Positions 2,952 to 4,766 of a DNA stretch of 31,350 bases are shown piece by piece. This DNA comes from a virus. The notes under the pieces were generated by a model. That model worked only from the letters and a program-made list of their open reading frames with translations. It ran no database searches and was not told where the DNA came from. The stretch spans positions 1 to 31,350 of IMG/VR virus record IMGVR_UViG_3300050343_000061; one strand, 5' to 3'. Each line of letters opens with the position of its first letter. Positions within the stretch are counted from its first letter, which is position 1. A program made the translations under genes and the position numbers.

Positions 2952-3323
2952 TCACCCTAGATCTATGCTCACCTTGATGTCACCAGCCACCTGTACTTGG
3001 CTTCTATCTATAGGCTTGTAGCCAGCCCTGTCTAATAAATCCTTACTAGCTTCAAGCTGAACATACTCAGACTTAGCGCCCTGTGACAGCCTACGCACTG
3101 TGTTCACAGCTACGGTAGCACTAAGTCCAAACTCCTCATTCATACGCTGCATCATGTACTGCTGCACATGGGCTGTCTTGAGTGCTTTGTAAGCTGAGAC
3201 GTATCCAGACTTGCCTTCAGCGTACCCAGCTTCAATAGCAGCTTTAGCTGCAGGCAGCCCTTTTGATACCATTATATCCACCAGCGCAGCCTGTTTATCA
3301 GTTAACTTCTTAGCAGGAACCAT
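2952..3323 (-). CDS. terS: Terminase small subunit
   Basis: 123 residues. DNA-recognition subunit that binds the packaging site and loads the large terminase. The N-terminal half has the hallmark order KLTDKQAALVDIMVSKGLPAAKAAIEAGY (residues 5-34) of the Terminase_2-type helix-turn-helix, followed by a helical oligomerisation region. It is the first minus-strand gene of the divergent control region. The Shine-Dalgarno AAGAAGGA precedes ATG 3323 and lies inside one arm of an 11-bp inverted repeat (see 3326-3414), so translation may be gated by leader folding. Confidence 0.88.
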   Translation of the reverse strand: MVPAKKLTDKQAALVDIMVSKGLPAAKAAIEAGYAEGKSGYVSAYKALKTAHVQQYMMQRMNEEFGLSATVAVNTVRRLSQGAKSEYVQLEASKDLLDRAGYKPIDRSQVQVAGDIKVSIDLG

Positions 3324-3494: not shown

Positions 3495-3524
3495 TTGTCA
3501 ATAGTGACGTTACGTAACTATACT
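3495..3524 (+). promoter_or_regulatory. Candidate sigma70 promoter for the early genes
   Basis: TTGTCA at 3495-3500, an 18-base spacer, and TATACT at 3519-3524, each one mismatch from consensus. The spacer contains the perfect 10-bp palindrome GTTACGTAAC (3509-3518). Transcription would run into the 3639-3821 leader and the gene at 3824. No phage RNA polymerase gene is seen, so a host-type early promoter is expected. On the opposite strand TTGACA (3502-3497) overlaps the same -35, but I find no matching -10. Confidence 0.55.
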
Positions 3525-3540
3525 AATTACCCTACGTCAC
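3504..3540. promoter_or_regulatory. Inverted pair of 15-bp boxes around the -10 (operator)
   Basis: Plus-strand box GTGACGTTACGTAAC (3504-3518) and minus-strand box GTGACGTAGGGTAAT (3540-3526) face each other across the 7-bp centre TATACTA, which holds the -10. Consensus GTGACGTNNSGTAAY. A third copy, GTGACGTAAGGTAAC, is at 4502-4516. A dimeric regulator binding here would cover the -10. Candidate binders are the small HTH proteins of this genome or a host factor. Confidence 0.6.
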
Positions 3541-3638
3541 ACTGCATTTCACTAGTTGACAGACTATAACAACTACCAACAACCAAACAGCTAATAACCT
3601 CTAGTCTCAGCTTGTAGCTCGTTGATAGTACGTCATGG

Positions 3639-3821
3639 GCTAGTTCTCCTGTGTCCCTGCGGCTACCTCGCTTGCCATCCTTCATGTCATCAGCCTGCAA
3701 CAGTTCGCAAGGTACGCTTCGCTTTGCTCCTTGCGAACTGCAAGCGCCGTGGGCGTTTCAGTCTGTGCCATTTGTCTGTCATCGCGAGGGTAGTCCTCGC
3801 GACACACATAGGAGAACTAGC
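3639..3821 (+). promoter_or_regulatory. Large structured leader that pairs with the Shine-Dalgarno of the first early gene
   Basis: Perfect 12-bp outer stem: 3639-3650 with 3810-3821. The right arm contains AGGAG, the ribosome site of the gene at 3824. Inside: a perfect 12-bp hairpin 3701-3712/3729-3740 (16-base loop), a closing helix CGCTTG/CAAGCG (3669-3674/3741-3746), a short CGCC-GTG-GGCG hairpin (3745-3755) and an 8-bp hairpin 3782-3789/3795-3802 (5-base loop). CTACCTCGC (3663-3671) can instead pair with GCGAGGGTAG (3784-3793, one bulge), so two exclusive folds exist. GC content is visibly above the surroundings. Confidence 0.7.
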
Positions 3822-3823
3822 AA

Positions 3824-4240
3824 ATGACTAAGACATTATCAGAACTCGCAAAGCTGAAACTAGAGGTTATCAACTATCATAACCACGACATCTCTAATCC
3901 TGACAACAAAACAGGTGGCAACGTGGTCAACGAACAATTCATTATCTCACTTGCTCGTGATGCTTGCTTTGCATCAGCTAGAGCAGTCAAGTTCAAGTCT
4001 GATTATTACAACGATCTTGTAGCTCAATACGATATAGCTGTTGATAACAACAACATCTCAGAAGCAAGACGTTGTGAGTATATCCTTGAACGTATCCCAC
4101 CAGAAGTAGACGAACTAAAGTATCGTCACAATGCAGACCTTGAGGTTTACAAGGAGCTAACAGGTGGTGAGACTTGGCTCCCTAAAGGTAGCTCTAACGA
4201 GAACTTCAAGGCTAAGAAATTCAAGAAGATAGCAGCGTAA
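3824..4240 (+). CDS. First early protein, unknown
   Basis: 138 residues, soluble, charged and mostly helical, with a Lys-rich C-terminus (FKAKKFKKIAA). ATG 3824 is preceded by AGGAG nine bases upstream, which sits in the right arm of the large leader structure. Being first behind the only good promoter, it is likely an early protein involved in host takeover; I see no domain that says how. Confidence 0.75.
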   Translation: MTKTLSELAKLKLEVINYHNHDISNPDNKTGGNVVNEQFIISLARDACFASARAVKFKSDYYNDLVAQYDIAVDNNNISEARRCEYILERIPPEVDELKYRHNADLEVYKELTGGETWLPKGSSNENFKAKKFKKIAA

Positions 4241-4346: not shown

Positions 4347-4505
4347 ATGCTCAAGACAGTTTGGATTGCGTTCGTTGCATTCTCTTCGCCAGAAGAATGC
4401 GACCGTTACGTCGAGCTTAACTCGGATCTAATTCATGGCGAAATACAATGCGTCATTCACCAGCACGAAGTGCCAGCAGTAAAACCAAAACGAAAACCAA
4501 AGTGA
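4347..4505 (+). CDS. Small early protein with hydrophobic N-terminus
   Basis: 52 residues: hydrophobic start MLKTVWIAFVAF, two cysteines, and a Lys/Pro-rich end. The ATG at 4347 is chosen over upstream in-frame starts because TTAGGAGG lies 5-10 bases before it and the upstream extension falls within the hairpin at 4292-4321. Function unknown. Its TGA overlaps the third copy of the GTGACGT box. Confidence 0.65.
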   Translation: MLKTVWIAFVAFSSPEECDRYVELNSDLIHGEIQCVIHQHEVPAVKPKRKPK

Positions 4506-4516
4506 CGTAAGGTAAC
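4502..4516 (+). promoter_or_regulatory. Third copy of the GTGACGT box
   Basis: GTGACGTAAGGTAAC, identical at 13 of 15 positions to the box at 3504-3518. It overlaps the stop of the 52-residue gene and lies upstream of the gene at 4575. No clear -10 could be assigned, so it may be a second operator or an internal regulatory site. Confidence 0.5.
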
Positions 4517-4537
4517 TAATGACTTTAACTATTGTTA

Positions 4538-4551
4538 CTGCAATAATGCAG
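4538..4551 (+). repeat. CTGCA-N4-TGCAG inverted repeat, copy 1
   Basis: CTGCAATAATGCAG, a 5-bp inverted repeat with a 4-base centre, 23 bases before ATG 4575. Same pattern at 6041-6056 and 7223-7236, each in the gap before an early gene. Confidence 0.6.
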
Positions 4552-4574: not shown

Positions 4575-4766
4575 ATGAAACTTAATTACATTGACACAGA
4601 TGAGACACCAGTCTCAATTACTTTCGTTGCTGATGAGATCAAAGTAATCAGCAACTTTCTTGAACTGCATAAAGCTCAAGTCGAAAGCTTTAATCGCAGT
4701 GCATTGATGGAAGACATGGCTAATAAATTTGCAGAGATAACTGCAAGATTGATTATGGAGAAATAA
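4575..4766 (+). CDS. Small acidic early protein, unknown
   Basis: 63 residues with a helical C-terminal two-thirds (IKVISNFLELHKAQVESF ... FAEITARLIMEK). ATG 4575 follows AGGAGAAC (4563-4570), the strong ribosome site shared with the genes at 3824, 7269 and 8039. Ends one base before the DUF932 gene start, so the two are probably co-translated. No family recognised. Confidence 0.7.
   Translation: MKLNYIDTDETPVSITFVADEIKVISNFLELHKAQVESFNRSALMEDMANKFAEITARLIMEK

Follow-up and report, generated by a model that had tools for sequence, protein, structure and literature searches.

A conserved rod-like hairpin at the first early gene of an uncultured marine phage and its possible role as a leftward antisense RNA

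What is the folded, gene-free sequence that precedes the early operon of this phage, and on which strand does it act? The window, that is, the whole stretch of DNA analysed, is a virus record of 31,350 bases. It is podovirus-like; its terminase and late genes point leftward, and its early operon rightward. Early gene 1 (3824–4240, plus strand) encodes a protein of 138 aa with a predicted helical hairpin fold, which belongs to no known family; structure comparison gave no informative match, and a search of bacterial genomes with the protein found no relative. The first gene downstream of the element on the leftward strand encodes the terminase small subunit (terS, 2952–3323, minus strand; phrog_2538, phrog_51). 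The closest cultured relative of the terminase is that of Pelagibacter phage Hodr (60 % identity).

Further repeats flank this region. The terS ribosome site (AAGAAGGATTG) lies within a perfect 11-bp inverted repeat (3326–3336/3404–3414, minus strand), and several relatives also have a hairpin at this site, with differing sequences. An operator-like direct repeat, AGTGACGTTACGTAACTA / AGTGACGTAAGGTAACTA, is present at 3503–3520, upstream of early gene 1, and at 4501–4518, before a 63-aa gene at 4575. A promoter-like site (4519–4547) lies beside the second copy, ahead of the 63-aa gene.

Extent and conservation of the fold

The initial annotation described nested repeats in a GC-rich domain, and all of these are present in the sequence. 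A perfect 12-bp inverted repeat (GCTAGTTCTCCT, 3639–3650; AGGAGAACTAGC, 3810–3821) encloses a perfect 12-bp inner hairpin (CAGTTCGCAAGG, 3701–3712/3729–3740) and a small hairpin (TCGCGAGG, 3782–3789/3795–3802), and the GC content is 0.563, against 0.427 for the window. The alternative pairing of CTACCTCGC with GCGAGGGTAG is also present, and the competing pairing, here termed X–Y, is conserved. The proposed closing helix (CGCTTG, 3669–3674; CAAGCG, 3741–3746) can be read in the sequence but is not kept in relatives, which form a different helix, P2, at this point. The domain was said to contain no gene, and the frame of the ORF at 3651–3827 is indeed not kept in relatives. A coding leader in this ORF was rejected because indels between P5 and the Shine–Dalgarno (SD) sequence, in an alignment read by eye, are not multiples of three.

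On the plus strand, the region 3630–3840 folds with −90.1 kcal/mol, compared with −60.7 ± 4.2 for shuffled sequences (z −7.0; none of 200 shuffles as low), and the larger region 3540–3900 gives a z of −7.4, beyond every shuffle. The repeats lie within 3639–3821, as annotated, but the structure reaches farther on both sides. The minus strand folds better than the plus strand, with −140.4 kcal/mol (z −11.6) for 3585–3880 and −151.0 kcal/mol (115 Watson–Crick and 10 G.U pairs) for 3550–3915. The fold places a rod-like hairpin on the minus strand at 3557–3907, with both ends predicted.

Helix P0 pairs 3586–3613 with 3851–3878 (28 bp, of which 5 are G.U in minus-strand letters), beyond which weaker pairing reaches 3557/3907. 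Its left arm is a remnant of an inverted gene copy, while its right arm is antisense to codons 10–19 of early gene 1. Helix P1 (3632–3655/3801–3828) extends across the start codon (3632–3636/3824–3828); here the right arm is antisense to the AGGAG ribosome site and the ATG of early gene 1, and the left arm is an inverted copy of the ribosome site and start codon region. Segment X (3663–3671) pairs with Y (3784–3793) in the rod, or Y pairs with Z in hairpin P5 (3782–3802), which excludes X–Y. Helix P2 (3691–3697/3759–3765), weak in the window and strong in relatives, forms a three-way junction with the apical hairpin P3 (3700–3741) and the small hairpin P4 (3745–3755). All of these are assigned to the minus strand except P5, which is assigned to the plus strand. 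Eleven leaders were folded on the minus strand, and in most of them the minimum free energy structure is the long rod of P1, X–Y, P2 and the junction of P3 and P4, with P5 as an alternative.

Relatives were gathered by means of the early protein, terS, a protein that we take to be DUF932-like, and DNA patterns, giving about 170 loci. About 45 distinct leaders of the window's type can be aligned, and some 60 viral contigs keep the architecture. A covariance model of 188 positions and 43 pairs, R1, matched 55 times among 86 sources and 10 times among 56, never more than once per source. It also matches leaders outside its training set (L079, L092, L100, L094 and L156), and has no match in phage Hodr. 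BLAST comparison of the window's leader with cultured phages gave no match.

The initial annotation proposed covariation in relatives as a check, and this is evident. Across the 43 pairs in an alignment of 28 sequences, 83.7 % of cells are paired, compared with 73.1 % after shuffling, and sliding the partners lowers this to 34–46 %. Double-change cells in the same alignment number 121, against 48 in shuffled data (0/500). Covariation is clearest in P3 (95.6 % of cells paired), P4 (89 %) and P5 (93.7 %); P3 shows exchanges of C-G to A-U and C-G to U-A, and the pairs of P4 occur as GC, CG, AU and UA. An all-pairs covariation scan of the sequences with a simulated null, which has little power, yielded one clear pair.

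The longer helices were assessed by exchanging arms between leaders. The stem over the ribosome site is real: in 23 diverged leaders, P1 has an energy of −23.8 kcal/mol with its own arms and −17.4 kcal/mol (sd 0.69) with permuted arms (0/20000). P1 covers the SD and ATG in nearly all leaders, and the start codon lies within it as GTCAT/ATGAC, or as GCCAT/ATGGC in L066. For X–Y, own arms give −15.3 and swapped arms −12.6 kcal/mol (0/20000), with 36 double-change cells against 11.4 in shuffled data (0/500), and the compensation includes bases of the P5 loop. P0 behaves similarly in 25 leaders, with −50.5 against −31.1 kcal/mol on the minus strand and −34.7 against −21.7 kcal/mol on the plus strand (0/20000 for each).

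The element is thus real, structured, gene-free and unnamed, with compensatory evolution, and one of the possibilities put forward in the initial annotation, a new structured RNA, stands. Nothing in Rfam 15 exceeded the gathering threshold, relaxed searches gave chance-level matches or none, and a search for tRNA and tmRNA found none.

The loop of P3 is about 22 nt in the window and about 75 nt in other lineages. The P3 hairpin (CAGTTCGCAACAACGCTCG...TTGCGAACTGCAAGC) recurs in L054, L112 and L113 inside an otherwise unrelated leader, and therefore behaves as an exchangeable cassette. The long variants (L002, L004, L119, L151, L080, L057 and others) have a common loop motif, TTTCCTTTCTNAGC ... 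CCTTGTGGGGAAA, or AATCC/GGATT forms, which is possibly a binding site. A match to the P3 pattern in L170 was dismissed as chance, the leader context being absent.

Strand of the folded molecule

After correction by shuffling, the reverse complements fold better than the leaders in 21 of 25 cases (mean z −6.9, compared with −5.4). In the window genome, the minus strand as a rule folds more stably (tiles of −96, compared with −86), so raw folding energies are no evidence of strand. A census of tetraloops found only CUUG, on the minus strand; this is a single loop type and is not decisive.

Mismatches were therefore counted by strand, with G-U pairs forbidden in folding and only isolated mismatches between flanking Watson–Crick pairs scored. 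A plus-strand A.C mismatch is a G.U wobble in the minus-strand RNA. In plus-strand letters, the leaders have 37 A.C and 1 G.T (38:2 when the minus strand is folded), or 22 and 1 when distinct sequence contexts are counted. Shuffled leaders gave 54:43. A.C also exceeds G.T in the intergenic regions of 29 sequence clusters (84:17), the exceptions being the L056/L153/L148/L155 group (5:4) and L052 (3:4). P1 alone has A.C in 13 distinct contexts and G.T in none. Its left arm changes T to C opposite the SD adenines (TTCCCC against GGAGAA); since the SD is fixed by translation, it is this arm that reports what is tolerated, and the tolerance points to the opposite strand. P5 is the exception and the sole helix with a plus-strand wobble pattern: G.T occurs in it in six lineages, and internal A.C is absent.

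The antisense strand of rRNA, folded as a control, gave 15:1, as expected. Folding the sense strand gave few events (16S, 3 A.C to 1 G.T; 23S, 0 to 2). Coding stretches of the window also depart from 1:1 (early 9:23, late 23:12). Counts made on alignments show no bias, either with MAFFT or with the model alignment (78:77); these were set aside because, in our judgement, the bulges of P1 are misaligned there. Judged from these mismatch patterns, the folded molecule under selection is probably the leftward, minus-strand RNA, and not that of the strand favoured in the initial annotation.

The initial annotation proposed selection on the mRNA leader, as a switch or thermosensor that hides the SD. 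In such a leader, plus-strand P1 would hide the ribosome site and start codon, and X–Y and P5, formed sequentially during transcription, would constitute the switch. The near-universal cover of SD and ATG by P1 fits this proposal, as do the mutually exclusive pairings X–Y and Y–Z, both of them conserved, and the plus-strand G.T of P5. There is also a candidate for a rightward early promoter, TTGTCA-18-TATACT (3495–3524, plus strand), inside TGACGT palindromes; the TATACT block and the palindromes are conserved in close relatives, and the −35 element varies (TTGTCA, CTGTCA or GTGTCA). Leaders that hide an SD by long-distance pairing include the lambda N leader, the leader of the MS2 maturation gene and hok, which share with the window an upstream SD complement, internal hairpins and a competing pairing. 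Unlike these, the window has a strand pattern that is wrong for an mRNA, with 13 contexts to none in P1 indicating wobble tolerance on the other strand, and its pairing enters the coding region and in relatives spans the entire gene. An SD switch needs neither. A leader switch is for these reasons unlikely, although P5, beside the SD and with the reverse pattern, may have an additional role in the mRNA leader.

Inverted copies of the early gene

In 17 of 89 related loci, from about eight lineages, an inverted and decayed copy of the entire early gene lies upstream of it. These copies score 9 to 61 sd above shuffled sequences (threshold, more than 6). Identity between gene and copy is 70–81 % over extended alignments and 75–84 % within the gene. 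In the window, the gene arm spans only the first 28 codons or so. In L163 (a 37 kb contig), a distant relative (48 % in the DUF932-like protein), the early gene likewise has an inverted copy along its full length, at about 0.8 identity; the distance of this relative suggests that the arrangement is probably old. A literature search for inverted gene copies in phages found nothing, which is weak evidence, as subscription journals were mostly outside its scope.

Divergence of the copy is directional. Substitutions from gene to copy comprise 198 A>G and 102 C>T, compared with 21 T>C and 24 G>A (300 against 45 in total). The bias is seen in 10 of 10 loci, not all of which are independent lineages, and its direction is identical at codon positions 1, 2 and 3. 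Per site, A>G is 6 times as frequent as T>C, and the rates rank in the order A>G, C>T, T>G, C>A, A>T, C>G, G>T, A>C, T>A, G>A, T>C, G>C. Mismatches in an RNA helix are tolerated in the order G.U, then A.G, U.U and G.G, then C.U, then A.A and A.C, and finally C.C. The gene-to-copy rates appear broadly to follow this order for the minus-strand RNA.

A diversity-generating retroelement template was considered and rejected, since differences occur also at C, T and G and not at adenine only. A search of ten ORFs, early and terminase, found no reverse transcriptase.

The inverted repeat might instead act as DNA, as a quasi-palindromic origin or single-stranded DNA hairpin with arms kept alike by template switching. 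The imperfect palindrome with gene-length arms is compatible with this, the early genes searched include no recognised replication initiator, and repeated homogenisation would also make the arms more alike than those of relatives. However, mismatches are tolerated in the order expected of a single RNA strand, and the direction does not differ between codon positions; roles in double-stranded DNA predict no strand bias, and strongly asymmetric mutation would be required. We consider a DNA element quite improbable. A functionless, decayed divergent duplicate, with a bias due to a strand-asymmetric mutation spectrum, would be consistent with a left copy that lacks a long open frame (the longest stop-free stretch is 56–95 aa of 219–295 in the four loci checked). 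Against this, pairing with compensation is retained by diverged lineages and by the apex, which contains no gene, and A>G is in sixfold per-site excess over T>C; this explanation is very improbable.

A putative leftward antisense RNA

The best explanation, in which we place about even confidence, is a hairpin RNA transcribed leftward, one arm of which is antisense to early gene 1, while the other is a decayed inverted copy of that gene. The element would form the apex of an extended, imperfect inverted repeat, whose halves are the upstream copy and early gene 1 together with its ribosome site. The minus-strand RNA would fold as a rod in which the 5' arm is antisense to the gene and the ribosome site, the apex comprises X–Y, P2 and the P3/P4 junction, and the 3' arm is the inverted copy. 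By position, the antisense arm is complementary to its target RNA, including the ribosome site. The hairpin RNA would be made with the onset of leftward transcription, in the direction of terS and the late genes. Its antisense arm would then cover the start of the early gene 1 mRNA, and the pair would be cut by RNase III. Early gene 1 would thereby be turned down, perhaps when late transcription starts, a timing suggested by the position upstream of terS on the late strand. The copy arm may keep the antisense arm in a stable, wobble-weakened hairpin, from which the perfectly matching mRNA can displace it.

The leftward transcript, its promoter and ends, and the regulatory effect are what we infer here, and several observations speak against this explanation. 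A leftward promoter candidate, TTGTCA-19-TATGAT (3876–3906, minus strand), is weak (score 10.0, compared with 7.3 ± 1.9 for shuffled sequences) and is found in the window, L001 and L002 only; across the family, no fixed position has a conserved leftward promoter. P5 has the plus-strand pattern. The plus strand, too, has a stable fold (mean z −5.4), and any use of the early promoter implies that it is transcribed. The sense-strand rRNA control is thin and the coding stretches of the window depart from parity. Homogenisation of the arms by template switching could also give the fit of each arm to its own partner without selection on RNA.

Other noncoding regions occupy the same slot in relatives. 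Those of L022, L102 and L168 (class C), L026, L166 and L145 (class D) and L113 and L142 (class E) are mutually dissimilar, about 500 nt long and strongly folded; each is flanked by a similar promoter/operator block on one side and by a different first early gene on the other. They mostly have the same strand bias of A.C over G.T, and those tested have no Rfam match. The control family 6S RNA does not occur in this record.

These regions bear on a different role for a leftward RNA, either as a cis-acting 5' leader of the late transcript, for example an antitermination signal of the put kind, or as a trans-acting decoy. Downstream on the leftward strand lie terS and the late genes, and the unrelated large structured regions in this slot share its strand bias. 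No boundary or promoter is recognised for it, however, the very different RNAs in the slot speak against one conserved polymerase contact, and the gene-length inverted copies are left unexplained. Such a role is rather unlikely. Alternatively, gene and copy may be transcribed as a single hairpin and cut into short double-stranded RNA that silences the same early gene in co-infecting relatives, a form of superinfection control, for which we see only a small chance. This would be a prokaryotic counterpart of hairpin-RNA silencing, in which, with similarly small probability, different RNAs in the slot would have different specificities.

Cis-encoded antisense RNAs of phages include P22 sar and lambda OOP. 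Like these, the antisense RNA proposed here would be an opposite-strand RNA that overlaps a phage gene. In contrast to sar and OOP, its antisense arm would fold onto an encoded inverted copy of the target, in a predicted rod of 290–350 nt, or near 1 kb in relatives. Antisense/sense duplexes are cut by RNase III (PMC7373196). In plants, hairpin RNA loci such as Mu killer arise by inverted gene duplication (PMC3440606). Mu killer resembles the RNA proposed for the phage in having an inverted partial gene copy that gives a long hairpin against the parent gene, and differs in its use of eukaryotic small-RNA machinery, outside any bacteriophage.

Two other groups of structured RNA invite comparison. 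The cabRNA of staphylococcal phages is transcribed from the terminase genes themselves (PMC10686824). It too is a structured RNA near terS, with no evident relation to the element described here. GOLLD and ROOL are large structured RNAs, some of them of phages (PMC12286853). Relatives of the window similarly carry structured regions of 500 nt in the same slot, but the window element has no Rfam match at gathering or relaxed thresholds.

Covariation alone is silent on strand; here it was the direction of wobble that indicated it, against the obvious interpretation of a stem hiding the SD. In the literature searched, no phage precedent was found for an antisense arm with its own decoy copy. Should such a leftward RNA be produced, its antisense arm, accompanied by a built-in decoy copy of the target, would be the means by which these uncultured marine phages regulate the first of their early genes.
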